Assembly: GCA_013388755.1 (NCBI GenBank)
Contig: JACAEQ010000018.1
Location: 1-64,000 of the forward strand
Direction: 5' to 3'
From: Chloroflexota bacterium
Lineage (GTDB): Bacteria > Chloroflexota > Chloroflexia > Chloroflexales > Roseiflexaceae
DNA: 64,000 bases
In this document: positions 46,827 through 53,752 of the stretch, one piece after another
How positions within the stretch are numbered: position 1 is the first letter of the stretch
How the letters are laid out: every line of letters starts with the position of its first letter
Made by a program: the position numbers and the translations under genes
The notes under the pieces: generated by a model
Databases searched by the model: none
What the model was told of the DNA's origin: nothing
What the model saw: the letters and a program-made list of their open reading frames with translations, nothing else

Positions 46827-46888
46827 GTCCTTGCTCCTCTAGTTCGTCGCTCGTTGTAGCGATGCAGCCGGTACGAATGTTCTCGGGA

Positions 46889-48364
46889 TCATGGATCACG
46901 CCGTTGCAGTTGCGCGACGATACTCTCCATTGCCATGCCACGTGAGCCTTTAACAAGGATATAGTCGCCAGGCGCGATGCGTGTATGGGCCAGCGCCGCC
47001 GCGGCATCATTGTCCGCGACCATGTGGACCCGGTCGCGCGGCATGCCGGCCTGGAGCGCCTCATCGGCGATCCAGCGCGCCCGCTGGCCAACGGCGATCA
47101 GTTCCTGGAGCACTTCAGCTGCCCGTGCTCCGACCCGCCGGTGCGCCGTCTCTTCAATACTGCCCAGTTCCAGCATGTCGCCCAGGATGGCGATACGCCG
47201 GCCATCGAGTTCGGCCAGCAGGTTCAACGCCGCCAGCGTCGACGCCGGTGATGCATTATACGTGTCGTCGATCAAGGTTGTCTGGTTGACGCCCGGCACG
47301 GCCAGCAACCGGAGCTGAGCCTTCTCATCGCGCAGGCCGTCAATGATTGCTTCCCATTCCATGCCCAGCAGCAACCCGGCTGCCGCGCCGGCTAACGCTG
47401 TATGGACGCTGTGCCGCCCCAGCAAAGGGAGCGTCAGGTGGACGGTATCGCCCTGGTAGTGTGCGCGAAAGCTCACTCCCTGCAATCCACGACTCTCGAT
47501 GGCGTCGGCCCACAGATCCGCCGCCGGATCAAGCCCGTAGAAGAACGGTGTGGCGCGCGTGACATCGGCCATGACCCGCACCAGCGGATCGTCAATGTTG
47601 AGGATTGCATACCCATCCTCAGGTAACGCCCGGGGAAGTTCGCTCTTGGCGCGCTGGATGGCTTCAATGCTTCCCATGCGTTCCAGGTGCGACGGGCCAA
47701 CGTTGGTCACAATGCCGAGACGTGGCCGGGCGAGATCCGCCAGATGCGCGATCTCGCCCGGGCCATACATGCCCATCTCAAGCACCGCCACATGGTGTTC
47801 AGCGGTGAGCTTGAGCAGAACGATGGGCATCGTCGCCTCGCTATTGTAGCTTCTTGGATTTTTTAAGGTGCGAAAGCTGCGCTGCAACACGCTGGACGTC
47901 ACCTCTTTGGTGGAGGTCTTGCCCACGCTTCCGGTGATACCGATCACTGTCGGGTTAAATCTCCGGCGATGATACGATGCCAACCGGTTCAGCGCTGCCT
48001 GTGGCTCGTCAACGGCGATCAGCAACATGGTGGCGGGTGTCGCCTGTTCGAGCCCGGCGCCGGTTGTTGGATCAACCACCACCCGGGGCCGGCCAGGCAA
48101 CAGGTGTGCCGCTCGTTCACGTCGCACCAGCGCCCCACGGGCGCCACGCGCCGCAGCGTCAGCCACGAAATCATGGCCATCAACCCGTTCGCCGCGCAGG
48201 GCGACGAACAGGCAGTCAGGCGTCGCCAGCCGCGAGTCGATAACCGCTTCGCTGAAGGCGACCTGCACCAACGTGCGCGGTATGGAAGGCATGCGCCGAT
48301 CCGCTTCCGCCTGCACGCCAGACAGCACATCGTCCAATCGCAACACCGCCGCATCTCCCGACAT
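46889..48364 (-). CDS. murF: UDP-MurNAc-tripeptide-D-Ala-D-Ala ligase
   Basis: 491 residues. Mur-ligase features: N-terminal DSRLATPDCLFVALRGERVDGHDF, ATP loop GITGSVGKTSTKEVTSS, NPRSYNSE, VTNVGPSHLERMGS, and DDTYNASPAS near 350. The C-terminus (VKGSRGMAMESIV) is typical MurF. Adds D-Ala-D-Ala made by Ddl. About 60 bp from mraY. Confidence 0.96.
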   Translation of the reverse strand: MSGDAAVLRLDDVLSGVQAEADRRMPSIPRTLVQVAFSEAVIDSRLATPDCLFVALRGERVDGHDFVADAAARGARGALVRRERAAHLLPGRPRVVVDPTTGAGLEQATPATMLLIAVDEPQAALNRLASYHRRRFNPTVIGITGSVGKTSTKEVTSSVLQRSFRTLKNPRSYNSEATMPIVLLKLTAEHHVAVLEMGMYGPGEIAHLADLARPRLGIVTNVGPSHLERMGSIEAIQRAKSELPRALPEDGYAILNIDDPLVRVMADVTRATPFFYGLDPAADLWADAIESRGLQGVSFRAHYQGDTVHLTLPLLGRHSVHTALAGAAAGLLLGMEWEAIIDGLRDEKAQLRLLAVPGVNQTTLIDDTYNASPASTLAALNLLAELDGRRIAILGDMLELGSIEETAHRRVGARAAEVLQELIAVGQRARWIADEALQAGMPRDRVHMVADNDAAAALAHTRIAPGDYILVKGSRGMAMESIVAQLQRRDP

Positions 48365-48476: not shown

Positions 48477-50324
48477 CTATTGCCCTCCAACCGTCTGCCC
48501 GGGATCGACCAGGCCCATATCCGGCGCGACACGCTCATACCGCAACAACTGCGTGGCGATGGACTGATAGAGCGGAATGGCCGTGCGCACCGCCCAGTAA
48601 TCATCGCGCGGGCGATCGACCTTGACCAGGATGGCGTAGCGCGCATGCTCTGCCGGCGCAAGCCCCGCAACGGAGCCGATCGTCGCGTCCTGAACATACC
48701 CGCCGCGCCCGTCAGGGATCGACGAGGTCCCCGTCTTGGCGCACACCTCGTAGCCCGGAACGAGCCACGTGTCGCCATAGTTCCCGGTGGTTGATGCCCA
48801 GACGACCGGCGCATAGTGATTGGCCGACTTGACCAGCATGCGCCGCACTGTCCACGCAACACCCGGCTCGATCGGTTGCCCCACCTGCCGGGGTTGTGTG
48901 ATGATGCAATCATTGCCGCGGCAGCGCCGCTCAACAATGTAGGGGCGCATAAGCTTGCCGTCATTACCGATGGCTGCGACCATGCGCACGAGTTGCAGCG
49001 GCGTGACGGCAATCCCCTGGCCGTAGCCATTGGTGTTCAATATCAACGGGCTCCAGTCCGGCGCATTCGGCGTGCGAACCGTTCCGGCGGCTTCACCAGC
49101 GATCTCAATGCCGGTCGGCTTGCCGAAGCCGAATGCCTCCAGCGCTGCATAGAACTTCTCCGGGCCGATCAGTTCAGCCAGTTGCAGCGCGCCGACATTA
49201 CTGGAGTAGTACAGTATCTTCTCCGGGTTGACCGGCCCGTTGCCGCCGCCATTCCAGTTTGACAGGCTCCAACCGTAGCGATAGACGCTGCCGGGATCGT
49301 CCACGACCGTATCTGCGGTGAATGCGCGCGCCTGCAACCCGACGGCCACGGTGAAGATTTTGAATGTCGAGCCTGGCTCGTATTGCGTACTGACCGCCGG
49401 GTTGAGATTGTACATTTCCGCCGGATATTCAAAATAGCGGTTCGGATCGTACGTCGGGTAGCTTGCCATGCCACGGATCGCCCCCGTGCGCGGGTCCATC
49501 ACGATGACGGTGCCGCCATCGGCATTATGCTCATCAACTGCTTTTTTCAGCTCCGTCTCGATGATATGCTGGACCATCGAGTCAAGTGTCAATTGCAGGT
49601 CGACCCCCGGGCTTGCCGGTTGAATCTCCTGGGGGGCGATCCAGATCGGGTTCCGCTGCGAGTCCACCTCGGCGGTAATCGTGCCGGTGCTGCCGCGCAA
49701 GAGGGTATCGTAGTACCCTTCGACGCCGCTAATACCGACGTTCTCAAAGTTCACCGCGCCGATGGCGTGCGCGGCCAGCGTGCCTTGCGGATACACGCGG
49801 CGCGGCTCATATTGCAGCAGTAAGCCGGGTTCGTTCAGCGCCGCAACGCGATCGGCAATCTCAGGTTCGAGCCAGCGCTTGATACGCACCTGGTAGAGTG
49901 CCGTATTCTGCATTGCCGCCAGAATGTCGGGTGACGGTACGCCAAGCAAGGCAGACAGTGTCAGCGCCAGGCGTGGAGCCGTCTTTTGATCAATCTGCCC
50001 CGGCGCCACGTAGAGGCTTTGCAGGTCAACATCGAGCGCCAGCACATTCCCTTTGCTGTCGCGGATAACGCCGCGTGGCGAAGGGATGGCCAGTTGCTGG
50101 TGGATCTCGGCGCGTGCCATCTCGGCCAGCGTGTGCCCTTCAACTTTGACCTGGCCGGTTTGCAGACTGCCGAGATGGACCGCAACACGAGCAATCATGA
50201 GCGTCGCCAGCAGCAGAATCACATTGAGCCGCCAGCGGCTGATGGTGACGGGGCGATGCTCCTGAGCGGCGCGCCGCGCCGAAACGCGGCCAACGACAGT
50301 GCTACGAGTCGTACGTGCGGCCAT
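48477..50324 (-). CDS. ftsI: Penicillin-binding protein, FtsI/PBP3 transpeptidase
   Basis: 615 residues. A basic N-terminus, one membrane helix (about 31-50), a dimerisation/pedestal region, and a transpeptidase domain with the three active-site motifs: STFK in QYEPGSTFKIFTVAVG, SSN in LYYSSNVGALQL, and KTG in CAKTGTSSIPDG. No PASTA domain. Crosslinks septal peptidoglycan with FtsW. Lies between ftsL-like and murF, the classical order. Confidence 0.95.
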   Translation of the reverse strand: MAARTTRSTVVGRVSARRAAQEHRPVTISRWRLNVILLLATLMIARVAVHLGSLQTGQVKVEGHTLAEMARAEIHQQLAIPSPRGVIRDSKGNVLALDVDLQSLYVAPGQIDQKTAPRLALTLSALLGVPSPDILAAMQNTALYQVRIKRWLEPEIADRVAALNEPGLLLQYEPRRVYPQGTLAAHAIGAVNFENVGISGVEGYYDTLLRGSTGTITAEVDSQRNPIWIAPQEIQPASPGVDLQLTLDSMVQHIIETELKKAVDEHNADGGTVIVMDPRTGAIRGMASYPTYDPNRYFEYPAEMYNLNPAVSTQYEPGSTFKIFTVAVGLQARAFTADTVVDDPGSVYRYGWSLSNWNGGGNGPVNPEKILYYSSNVGALQLAELIGPEKFYAALEAFGFGKPTGIEIAGEAAGTVRTPNAPDWSPLILNTNGYGQGIAVTPLQLVRMVAAIGNDGKLMRPYIVERRCRGNDCIITQPRQVGQPIEPGVAWTVRRMLVKSANHYAPVVWASTTGNYGDTWLVPGYEVCAKTGTSSIPDGRGGYVQDATIGSVAGLAPAEHARYAILVKVDRPRDDYWAVRTAIPLYQSIATQLLRYERVAPDMGLVDPGQTVGGQ

Positions 50325-50334
50325 GGTCGATCCC

Positions 50335-50730
50335 TTACGGATTCAGTGGAATCGTCTGCTGTGGCGCAGCCGTGTCCTCGTCGGTGCCAATGATAATGTA
50401 GCGTGCCTGCTCGTATTGCATCGGCCTGAGTTGCAGCCGGGAGGCGCGGCGCTCAATATCCTGGAGCGATTGCGCGCGCGCAAGGCGCAGTTGCAGATTG
50501 CTGCGCTCGCGCAGGAGTTCGGTCTGCTGGTGCTGCAATCGGGCAATGGCGTACCCCTGCGTCGCGAGCCGGCCCGTCTGCCCGAGGGAGATCGCGCTCA
50601 TCAGCGCCAGCAGGAATGCTGCCGCAATCAGGCGTCGCCCGCCGTCGAGTTGCAGGTAACGCGCCAGCTCAAGCCGGCGTTGCTTTGCTTCACGGATGGT
50701 TGGGTAGAGTGGTTTGAGTGTGATAGCCAT
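50335..50730 (-). CDS. ftsL: FtsL-like septum protein
   Basis: 131 residues from ATG 50730. One membrane helix near 33-50 (RLIAAAFLLALMSAISLG) followed by a coiled-coil region rich in Leu, Gln, Glu and Arg (about 60-100), then a short tail. Length, topology and position between rsmH and ftsI identify it as the FtsL equivalent, although primary sequence is poorly conserved in this family. It would form a trimer with FtsQ and an FtsB-like partner. Confidence 0.75.
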   Translation of the reverse strand: MAITLKPLYPTIREAKQRRLELARYLQLDGGRRLIAAAFLLALMSAISLGQTGRLATQGYAIARLQHQQTELLRERSNLQLRLARAQSLQDIERRASRLQLRPMQYEQARYIIIGTDEDTAAPQQTIPLNP

Positions 50731-50757
50731 AACTCCGCCCTCTCTTCTGACAGACAA

Positions 50758-51654
50758 TCAACCAGGAACAATCAATCGCTCCGCCACTCTGAGTTTTGCA
50801 CTTCGGCTGCGCGGGTTCGCGTGCTGTTCCTCCGGCCCGGCCACGACTGGTTTTCGGGTGATGAGCGCCAGCCGCCCGGCTGCCGCCTCCGTACGAAGAA
50901 ACTGCTTGACGATCCGATCTTCCAGTGAATGGAAGGCAATGACCGCAATCCGTCCGCCAGCACTCAGCAGTTCAACAATCTGCGGTAATGCCTCCGTCAG
51001 GCTTGCCAGTTCATCGTTGACCGCAATCCGTAGCGCCTGAAAGGTGCGCGTCGCCGGATGGATCTTGCCGCGCGCCCCCCCGAGCGCCCGGCTGACGATC
51101 GTCGCCAGTTCATCCGTCATCGTGATCGGCGCGCGGCGTCGGGCTTCGACAATCGCGCGGGCAATACGGCGCGAAGCACGTTCTTCGCCATAGCGAAAGA
51201 TAACGTCGGCCAGTTCGCGTTCCGGCAGCGAATTCACCAGCTCCTTCGCCGTGAGCGGTGCGTCCGGGTCGAGCCGCATGTCGAGCGGCGCGCTGGCCTG
51301 AAATGAAAACCCCCGCTCCGGCGTATCGAACTGGTACGACGACACGCCGAGATCAAGCAACACGCCCTGTACCTGGTCAAACCCCGCCGCTACCGCAAGC
51401 TGCCGGATGGCGCGGAAGTTGCCGCGTGCCAGGGTTATGCGCCCGGCGAAGACAGACAGTCGCTCGGCTGCGGCCACAAGTGCCGCCGGGTCACGGTCGA
51501 TTCCGAGAAGCCGCCCATCGGGCGCTGATGCTGCCAGGATCGCCGCGGCGTGACCACCACCGCCGACGGTGCCATCAATGTAGCGCCCACCGGCACGTGG
51601 CGCCAGACCGGCGACAACTTCGGCGAGCAGCACCGGTGTATGCTGAAAGTCCAA
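50758..51654 (-). CDS. rsmH: 16S rRNA (cytosine1402-N4)-methyltransferase
   Basis: 298 residues. RsmH/MraW hallmarks: [29 protein letters not shown] (SAM loop), [42 protein letters not shown] and [15 protein letters not shown]. Methylates C1402 in the ribosomal P site. Second gene of the dcw cluster; its separation from mraZ is caused by a MITE. Confidence 0.96.
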
Positions 51655-51690
51655 GCCAGATACCCCGGCGTGCTATGCAACATCTAGAAA

Positions 51691-51825
51691 CAATACCTTT
51701 CAGATAAGGCGTGACGCACCGCACAGCCCCCCCGTCCAACCTCTCCCCGCTGGGGGGAGGAGCTGGACCCCTTCCCCGGCAGGGGAGGGCCGGGGTGGGG
51801 TGACGGGCGTAGTTGAAAAGTATTG
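51691..51825 (-). mobile_element. MITE-1 copy 2 (135 bp) inserted at the mraZ stop codon
   Basis: The same element as at 31567-31702, in inverse orientation: CAATACCTTTCAGATAAGG at the left, CTTTTCAACT-type sequence at the right. Flanks CATCTAGAAA (51681-51690) and CGTCTAGAAA (51826-51835) match at 9 of 10 positions, consistent with a 10-bp target duplication. The right flank supplies the mraZ stop codon. The core contains complementary C-rich and G-rich tracts. Confidence 0.85.
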
Positions 51826-51828
51826 CGT

Positions 51829-52260
51829 CTAGAAACGCAGTTCGGCCAGCTTCTGCGCAAACACACTGGCATTGGCATCCATGGATGTCAGAACATTCTG
51901 CCAGCGACGCGGCGACCAGATTTCAAAGTGCCGGTTCAGGCCAGCAATGATGACCTGGTCGCCAAGTTCCGCAAACTCGCGCAGGTTCTGCGGGATCAGA
52001 ATGCGCCCTTGCTTGTCCAGCGGCATATCGGCGGCGCCTGAGAACAGCATGCGCTGCAACTGGCGGGTCTCTTCACTTCCAATCGGCAGGCTACTTACCT
52101 GCCGTGCCAGTTCGTCCCACACACTGCGCGGAAATCCCATCAAGCACCGATCGAAGCCGCGCGTAATCACCACGCCCTCGCCTAACGCATCGCGAAAACG
52201 CGCCGGAATGGCCAGGCGGCCTTTCTCATCAAGAGCATGCTCGTATTCGCCAAGAAACAC
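51829..52260 (-). CDS. mraZ: Transcriptional regulator MraZ
   Basis: 143 residues from GTG 52260. Two tandem AbrB/MazE-like swapped-hairpin domains: MFLGEYEHALDEKGRLAIPARF and a second, DMPLDKQGRILIPQNLREFA. MraZ forms a ring-shaped oligomer and represses its own promoter by binding phased GTGGG/TGGGA-type boxes. Three such boxes at 10-bp spacing are present in the leader, so autoregulation is well supported. First gene of the dcw cluster. GGCGGAAG precedes the start. Confidence 0.95.
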   Translation of the reverse strand: MFLGEYEHALDEKGRLAIPARFRDALGEGVVITRGFDRCLMGFPRSVWDELARQVSSLPIGSEETRQLQRMLFSGAADMPLDKQGRILIPQNLREFAELGDQVIIAGLNRHFEIWSPRRWQNVLTSMDANASVFAQKLAELRF

Positions 52261-52284
52261 GGCGCTTCCGCCTGACTGAAGTAA

Positions 52285-52339
52285 ATAGAACGTTTGTGTT
52301 GATTATCGGTGTATCGGTGAGAATATAGAACGTTTGTGT
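52285..52339. repeat. Two 15-bp direct repeats in the mraZ leader
   Basis: ATAGAACGTTTGTGT occurs at 52285-52299 and 52325-52339, exactly 40 bp apart. Between them ATCGGTG is itself repeated. They lie in the transcribed leader of mraZ. Confidence 0.8.
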
Positions 52340-52345
52340 GGTATT

Positions 52346-52371
52346 CCCCACTTTGCCCCACATTTCCCCAC
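52346..52371 (-). promoter_or_regulatory. MraZ operator: three phased GTGGGG boxes
   Basis: CCCCAC on the plus strand at 52346-52351, 52356-52361 and 52366-52371 (GTGGGG on the minus strand), with an exact 10-bp period. A further GTGGGG lies in the promoter spacer (52398-52403). The boxes lie just downstream of the predicted transcription start, as for E. coli MraZ boxes (TGGGN repeats). Confidence 0.85.
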
Positions 52372-52381
52372 CTAGGCTGCT

Positions 52382-52410
52382 ATTATATACCACAATACCC
52401 CACATATCAA
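52382..52410 (-). promoter_or_regulatory. Promoter of the dcw cluster
   Basis: On the minus strand TTGATA (52405-52410), 17 bp, then perfect TATAAT (52382-52387). Predicted start near 52375, giving a leader of about 115 nt. Confidence 0.85.
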
Positions 52411-52499
52411 GCAGAATCTATCGATTTTGCAGGTTATTCTGCATACGATGCCGTGTCGTCATTTCCGGGCCGGTGGGACGTGCCGCCACAACAGGCGAC

Positions 52500-52535
52500 A
52501 AAAGAACCCGGCGCGAGGAAGGCCCTCGCGCCGGG
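52500..52535 (-). terminator. Intrinsic terminator of the acyl-CoA dehydrogenase gene
   Basis: Perfect 11-bp stem CCCGGCGCGAG / CTCGCGCCGGG with a 7-nt loop (52507-52535). On the minus strand it is followed by TTCTTTTG. It lies 50 bp past the stop of the acyl-CoA dehydrogenase. Confidence 0.85.
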
Positions 52536-52585
52536 TAAGGGGACGTACACTGGATCTGGTGGTCAGTTCGTATGGCGCCAAGTGG

Positions 52586-53752
52586 TCAGTACAGCCGCAC
52601 CTTGTGTCCGGCCGTCTTCAGCAATTCGCTGGCGATCACGTAGCGCTGGATTTCGTTTGTGCCCTCGTAAATACGGAACACACGCGCATCGCGATACATA
52701 CGCTCGAGTGGTAGTTCGCGCGAGAACCCCATGCCACCGTGGATCTGGATGGCCTCATCAAGGATCTGTGACATCGCGTCGGTGCAGTAGAGCTTCACAA
52801 TGCTTGACTCGAGCCGTGCCGGTTCGCCACGATCCACCTTTGCAGCACAGTCATACACAATTTGCTCCATGGTATAGAGCTTGACCGCCATGTCGGCCAG
52901 TTTGAACTGGATGGCCTGAAAGTCGGCAATCGGGCGGCCGAACTGCTGGCGTTCGATAGCATACTTGAGCGACAGGTCGTAGGCTTCCTTGGCGGCGCCG
53001 AGACAGGCGGCGCCAAGCCCACAGCGACCGATGTCGAGCGTCTGCATGGCCAGCGCGTACCCCCGCCCGACCTCGCCGAGCACATTGGCTGCCGGCACAC
53101 GGCAATCTTCGAAGAAGAGGGATGCGGTATGCGATGCGCGCAGGCCCATTTTCGGCTCAACCTTGCCAACCTTGAAGCCAGGAAAATCCTTCTCGACAAT
53201 GAATGCGGTAATACCGCGCGGCCCGGCAGATGGATCCGTTACTGCAAATACCACCAGCACATCGGCAAACGAACCATTGGTGATCCACATCTTGCTGCCA
53301 TTGAGCACCCAGTCATCGCCGTCGCGCACGGCGGTGGTGCGGATGTGTGCGGCATCACTGCCGGCGTTGGGTTCAGTCAGCGCCCACGCGCCCCACTTCC
53401 CCCCCTCGATCAACGGGCGCAGGTAGCGCTCCTTCTGCTCTGGCGTGCCGGCAATATGGATCGACATTGCGCAAAGCTGCACATGCGCCCCGACGATTGT
53501 TCCAGTGGAGGCGCACTTACGGTTGATCTCTTCCAGCAGTACGCAATACCCGGTAATGCCGGACTCCGCGCCGCCATACGCTTCAGGAAACGGTACGCCA
53601 AGCAGACCAAGGTCGGCTGCCTTGCGTAACATCTCAAACGGCACACGCTCCTCTTCGTCGATTTCGCGGGCAATCGGGGCGATCTCCTTATTGGCGAACT
53701 CACGCACCGTCTGGCGCAGCAGCCGGAGATCCTCGGGCAGTTCGTACTCCAT
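52586..53752 (-). CDS. Acyl-CoA dehydrogenase
   Basis: 388 residues from ATG 53752, which has GGAGGG about 10 nt upstream. FAD-dependent family: WALTEPNAGSDAAHI and WITNGSFADVLVVFAV in the middle domain, RQQFGRPIADFQAIQFKLAD, the C-terminal QIHGGMGFSRELPLERMYRDA and RIYEGTNEIQR, where Glu is the likely catalytic base. This set resembles short/branched-chain acyl-CoA dehydrogenases. Substrate chain length cannot be set from sequence. It stands alone with its own -10 (TATAAT at 53790-53795 on the minus strand) and terminator. Confidence 0.93.
   Translation of the reverse strand: MEYELPEDLRLLRQTVREFANKEIAPIAREIDEEERVPFEMLRKAADLGLLGVPFPEAYGGAESGITGYCVLLEEINRKCASTGTIVGAHVQLCAMSIHIAGTPEQKERYLRPLIEGGKWGAWALTEPNAGSDAAHIRTTAVRDGDDWVLNGSKMWITNGSFADVLVVFAVTDPSAGPRGITAFIVEKDFPGFKVGKVEPKMGLRASHTASLFFEDCRVPAANVLGEVGRGYALAMQTLDIGRCGLGAACLGAAKEAYDLSLKYAIERQQFGRPIADFQAIQFKLADMAVKLYTMEQIVYDCAAKVDRGEPARLESSIVKLYCTDAMSQILDEAIQIHGGMGFSRELPLERMYRDARVFRIYEGTNEIQRYVIASELLKTAGHKVRLY

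Follow-up and report, generated by a model that had tools for sequence, protein, structure and literature searches.

The 64,000-nt stretch of Chloroflexota DNA analysed here (the window) carries, on its minus strand and in front of mraZ, a promoter followed by three MraZ-type boxes at exact 10-bp intervals and, just behind these boxes, two LexA-type sites. Based on comparison with related genomes, we consider it probable that this arrangement reflects MraZ autorepression at a promoter-overlapping operator, together with LexA as a second repressor. The MraZ operator itself is of a known kind and little has changed between Chloroflexota and Escherichia coli, while the LexA-type neighbour, well supported by its conservation among relatives, is the more interesting part.

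Promoter and operator of mraZ

The minus strand of the mraZ control region reads TTGATA-TGTGGGGTATTGTGGTA-TATAAT-AGCAGCCTAG-GTGGGGAAATGTGGGGCAAAGTGGGG (Table 1), and thus the three GTGGGG boxes, which follow the TTGATA-17-TATAAT promoter at 10-bp intervals, as well as the fourth GTGGGG between −35 and −10, are located where the original prediction had placed them. The promoter shares 11 of 12 bases with the consensus and is the only one found in 51900-53400 (0.6 expected from shuffles). Positions relative to the transcription start are counted from the predicted +1, and the mraZ start codon begins at +116. An Rfam scan of 51600-52600 identified no RNA element in the mraZ leader. Note that a strong terminator-like hairpin (14 pairs, minus strand, 52506-52536) separates the mraZ promoter from the upstream acyl-CoA dehydrogenase gene and would insulate the mraZ operon from upstream read-through.

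The boxes are specific within their own genome. Indeed, the triple GTGGGG pattern with at most two mismatches was found once in the 64 kb (0.01 expected from shuffles), and the paired pattern GTGGGGN4GTGGGG occurs in the 5.08-Mb genome only at the mraZ operator and in one coding sequence. The latter match was rejected as a further MraZ target, as it sits within a flippase-like coding sequence.

Table 1. Features of the mraZ control region and of the genes behind it (positions in the window)
Feature	Position	Strand	Remarks
−35 hexamer TTGATA	52405..52410	−	promoter scan; TTGATA or TTGAAA equally distant in most relatives
Box P1 GTGGGG, MraZ-type	52398..52403	−	between the promoter hexamers, about −28 to −23
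Box P2 GTGGTA, degenerate	52388..52393	−	10 bp behind P1, abuts the −10, −18 to −13
−10 hexamer TATAAT	52382..52387	−	17-bp spacer from the −35
Predicted +1	near 52375	−	placed from the distance to the −10
MraZ box D1 GTGGGG	52366..52371	−	about +5 to +10
MraZ box D2 GTGGGG	52356..52361	−	about +15 to +20
MraZ box D3 GTGGGG	52346..52351	−	about +25 to +30
LexA-type site 1, ACACAAACGTTCTAT	52325..52339	−	15 bp, about +37 to +51
LexA-type site 2	52285..52299	−	same 15 bp as site 1, 40 bp beyond it, +77 to +91
mraZ	51829..52260	−	GTG start, 143 aa; TIGR00242
rsmH	50758..51654	−	TIGR00006
ftsL-like gene	50335..50757	−	NF053549, E 2e-8, below the cut-off of that model
Penicillin-binding protein gene, ftsI/spoVD type	48477..50324	−	
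murF	46889..48364	−	TIGR01143, above cut-off

Conservation of the MraZ boxes

Conservation was followed across the order Chloroflexales in 56 leaders of dcw mraZ genes (that of the window included), which represent 19 genera when one locus is taken per genus. Of the 56 leaders, 53 have a run of three or more TGGG spaced by exactly 10 bp, compared to a rate of 0.0002 in shuffled leaders, and none displayed such a run at periods of 6-9 or 11-15 bp; the remaining three leaders have one degenerate box. The box consensus over 57 boxes from the 19 genera is AAAGTGGGGAA, with GTGGGG as its core, an invariant TGG and conserved GT and AAA flanks. Beyond the order, three TGGG at 10 bp were found in 23 of 74 further Chloroflexota genera, none of which showed three-TGGG runs at periods of 7-9 or 11-14 bp; in addition, 32 of the 74 have two TGGG within a 10-bp TGG run and 19 have none. 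In leaders of Clostridium and Planctomycetota, the 10-bp GTG repeats are kept with less G. The check across Chloroflexota that had been suggested with the original prediction therefore comes out in its favor, and the reading as an MraZ operator is supported both by this conservation, which holds for the order and widely for the phylum, and by the gene order mraZ-rsmH-ftsL-pbp-murF downstream. Taken together, the boxes at 52346-52371 almost certainly constitute an MraZ operator, judging from their sequence and distribution.

TGGGN boxes are reportedly also the operator of the E. coli mraZ (dcw) operon. In E. coli K-12 MG1655, the corresponding region reads TTGACA-17-GTAAAC-9-TGGGAAATTGTGGGGCAAAGTGGGA (hexamers assigned by eye) and its boxes, TGGGA-N5-TGGGG-N5-TGGGA, lie on the same strand with the same 10-bp period as those of the window, mraZ being the first gene in both; 23 of the 26 operator bases are identical. 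The phasing to one helical turn had been put forward as a difference from E. coli, which proves wrong: as K-12 has the same period, the phasing in the window is the known one, and what was advertised as the oddity of this operator is a known spacing. The operator is indeed richer in G than that of E. coli, as had been claimed, but by two extra G only. The two regions differ in the distance from the boxes to the −10 (9 bp in E. coli vs 11 bp in the window), and the compared E. coli stretch, unlike the window, has no box in the promoter spacer and no GAAC-N4-GTTC behind the boxes.

According to the parts of the literature consulted here, MraZ boxes and repression by MraZ are established (PMC8475190, PMC7761207), with operators made of AAAGTG[T/G] repeats in Mollicutes (PMC8475190, PMC7761207) and of four 7-nt repeats separated by 3 nt, i.e., a 10-bp period, in Burkholderia (PMC7761207). 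As far as these parts describe them, both operators resemble that of the window by their 10-bp direct repeats over the mraZ transcription start and by the AAAGTG core, whereas they have four boxes with less G, and the same parts describe no promoter-internal box (PMC8475190, PMC7761207).

A recurrent box in the promoter spacer

The box located between the promoter hexamers (P1) recurs in distant genera. A TGGG at most five bases from the −35 was observed in 7 of 19 genera (one of which has it in some members only), while about 0.03 per genus, or about 0.6 in 19 genera, is expected from a background of 0.10 per 20-nt window. The corresponding binomial chance is 8e-7 for seven genera and 1.4e-5 for six, values that overstate the case since genera are not independent. 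In the window and in all six genomes of the neighboring genus, the spacer reads TGTGGG(G/A)NNNNGTGGTA, and these relatives share GTGGG and GTGG, with differing bases in between. GTGGG was also found at the same place of the spacer in two loci of Anaerolineae and another one of Chloroflexi (L183, L185 and L186), whereas most genera of the order have no spacer box. In our view, P1 is a recurrent variant of the MraZ operator, and its recurrence at one place makes a function likely.

A GTGG directly 5′ of the −10, i.e., at the place of P2, was found in 9 of 19 genera, and P2 may be a promoter element rather than a box. P1 and P2 are located 3.05 and 2.10 helical turns from D1, respectively, and one MraZ oligomer could thus touch both sets of boxes. 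The spacer box had been proposed as a means of polymerase occlusion. The box is real and recurrent, but it would not be needed for this purpose, since the downstream boxes (about +5 to +30) already overlap the initiating polymerase.

LexA-type sites behind the boxes

Just behind the boxes, the window has two sites of the form ACAC-N4-GTTC (ACACAAACGTTC), whose half-sites are the same as those of the promoter site of its own lexA (TTGACAAGAACAGGCGTGTTATGTCATAAT). This lexA gene (C94:22946-23581) scores above cut-off and its promoter carries a LexA-type site, as do the lexA promoters of Chloroflexales with the same kind of site. In addition, recA promoters display a related GAACN4GTGC form (own recA included), and lexA was detected in 55 of 60 relatives. 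Compared to GAAC-N4-GTTC, each site of the window has one perfect half and two mismatches in the other. Neither these sites nor the degenerate box P2 figured in the original prediction.

To place these sites among relatives, the stretch between the last box and the mraZ start codon was searched in the 56 Chloroflexales leaders. A perfect GAACN4GTTC was found in 12 leaders (0.02 expected from shuffling) and one with at most one mismatch in 28 leaders (1.3 expected), which corresponds to 10 and 13 of the 19 genera, respectively, while control stretches of equal length upstream of the −35 contained none. The palindrome lies most often 5 bp behind the last box (30-40 bp in the neighboring genus), and site 1 of the window matches its position in relatives. 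Six of the 19 genera, including Chloroflexus and Herpetosiphon, have no site within one mismatch, so the LexA-type site is dispensable. Three boxes combined with a perfect palindrome occurred in 15 of the 158 class genomes searched, once in each, a count from a strict pattern that misses degenerate sites, those of the window among them; the reversed control of this pattern gave no match in the 158 genomes. Outside the order, such sites at mraZ are scattered (perfect ones in 2 of 74 genera, plus sites at L183, L185 and L186).

Within the genome of the window, the 31 genome-wide matches to AGAACN4GTKT are not above the reversed control, while outside long reading frames AGAACN4GTGT occurs only at lexA and mraZ. 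With a LexA matrix derived from the lexA and recA sites, site 2 ranks second and site 1 ninth among 127,974 positions of the window. Judging from these similarities, LexA is likely to bind the two sites. Note that the best matrix match in the window, AGAACATTCGTACC, is located at 46870-46883, at the murF end, and that AGAACN4GTTT occurs outside long reading frames of the same genome at L079:1501, L082:1501 and L098:1501. The latter neighbor one OMP decarboxylase gene and two genes that match no Pfam family, and it is possible that these are SOS genes.

LexA-type sites at mraZ are not without precedent. In human-gut bacteria, a site upstream of mraZ is bound by Bacillus subtilis LexA in EMSA (Cornish et al. 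2014, PMC3998124, considered here in part), which resembles the window in having a LexA-type site within the mraZ control region. The gut system belongs to a different phylum, and the part of that paper considered describes no link to adjoining MraZ boxes, whereas in Chloroflexales the LexA-type site lies behind MraZ boxes in most genera. SOS boxes have also been mentioned for the 5′ portion of the E. coli dcw cluster (PMC3265435). For Chloroflexota, we found no corresponding report in the open-access literature.

Proposed regulation and alternative explanations

From these elements we infer that MraZ and LexA bind here, that they repress, and in which direction DNA damage would act. The region would be the operator-promoter of a dcw (division and cell wall) operon in a bacterium of the Roseiflexus family, within the order Chloroflexales. 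MraZ would bind D1 to D3 and repress its own promoter, as in E. coli; on D1 and D2, it would already overlap the initiating polymerase, and P1, perhaps with the degenerate P2, would extend the MraZ contact across the promoter on the same helix face. Both sites further downstream (starting at about +37 and +77) would be occupied, most likely by LexA, which as a second repressor would hinder promoter escape or elongation. DNA damage would then lift one layer of repression and lead to a higher output of mraZ and the operon. MraZ overproduction is said to inhibit division in E. coli, and for this reason we lean toward a burst of MraZ that brakes division, although this direction of the response is a tentative guess. 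Indeed, a rise after damage cannot be assumed, since in Corynebacterium glutamicum the mraZ mRNA goes down after ciprofloxacin (PMC5055667).

The simplest alternative is an operator of the E. coli type, in which the three D boxes do everything, with a neutral spacer box and 15-bp repeats that do not serve as LexA sites. That D1 to D3 form the conserved core and match E. coli, that most genera lack the spacer box and that the LexA-type sites of the window are degenerate would all fit such an operator. We nevertheless regard it as rather unlikely, because the spacer box reappears at the same place in distant genera and because the palindrome behind the boxes, far above chance, matches the sites of lexA promoters. 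These matches also bear on a further explanation, according to which the palindrome belongs to another regulator. A likeness of motifs alone names no protein, and the sites of unrelated regulators can resemble each other. However, the same motif in the lexA promoters of Chloroflexales and its related form in recA promoters, the presence of lexA in nearly all relatives examined and the LexA binding at an mraZ site known from the part of PMC3998124 considered here leave this second explanation quite improbable compared to LexA.

The G tracts might also form a G-quadruplex that controls mraZ, with no protein boxes involved, as proposed for Staphylococcus aureus, where a G-quadruplex in the mraZ promoter region was reported (PMC11796246). 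The window does have runs of four G, but a three-layer motif (four runs of at least three G, with loops of 1-7 nt) was found in only 7 of 56 leaders, that of the window not being among these. Moreover, neither an invariant, exact 10-bp period nor conserved GT and AAA flanks are required for a G-quadruplex, and some boxes are TGGGA. On the G-tract counts, we rejected this explanation as highly improbable.

Returning to dual control by MraZ and LexA, its broadest form would be that, in Chloroflexales and some other Chloroflexota loci, MraZ and LexA together make the dcw promoter a dual switch, through which damage releases a burst of mraZ-operon expression and the extra MraZ brakes division. As a whole, this chain is doubtful on the present sequence comparisons. 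If true, the LexA-type site would tie the SOS response to the division operon via the operon's own regulator, and extra MraZ would fill the role played by SulA or YneA elsewhere. Within the order, the spacer box and the LexA site are each present in some promoters and absent from others, which provides a natural series.

Genes of the operon and related loci

Behind the operator, mraZ is the first gene of the dcw cluster and is followed by rsmH. Its product matches TIGR00242 over residues 1-140 with 130.4 bits (cut-off 98.35), has solved relatives of the PF02381 type in the PDB and is 88-91% identical to MraZ of the neighboring genus (Roseiflexus). It is encoded by the only MraZ gene in the genome of the window. 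Between mraZ and rsmH, and thus within the operon, an 84-bp GC-rich repeat (51727-51810) contains more TGGGG strings; about 40 similar copies, with 83-90% identity, are present in the same genome.

Genomes of the Chloroflexus type and related ones in the order (L060-L071; L163:3047-3505; L165:2678-3118) have a second MraZ-family gene, whose product is 35-43% identical to the MraZ of the window and may regulate a CHAT module as a separate MraZ-type protein. This gene precedes a CHAT-domain protease gene at two loci, at one of them also a NACHT/FGE-sulfatase gene, and its leader carries ACCCAAYAA repeats at about 11 bp in place of the TGGGG boxes.
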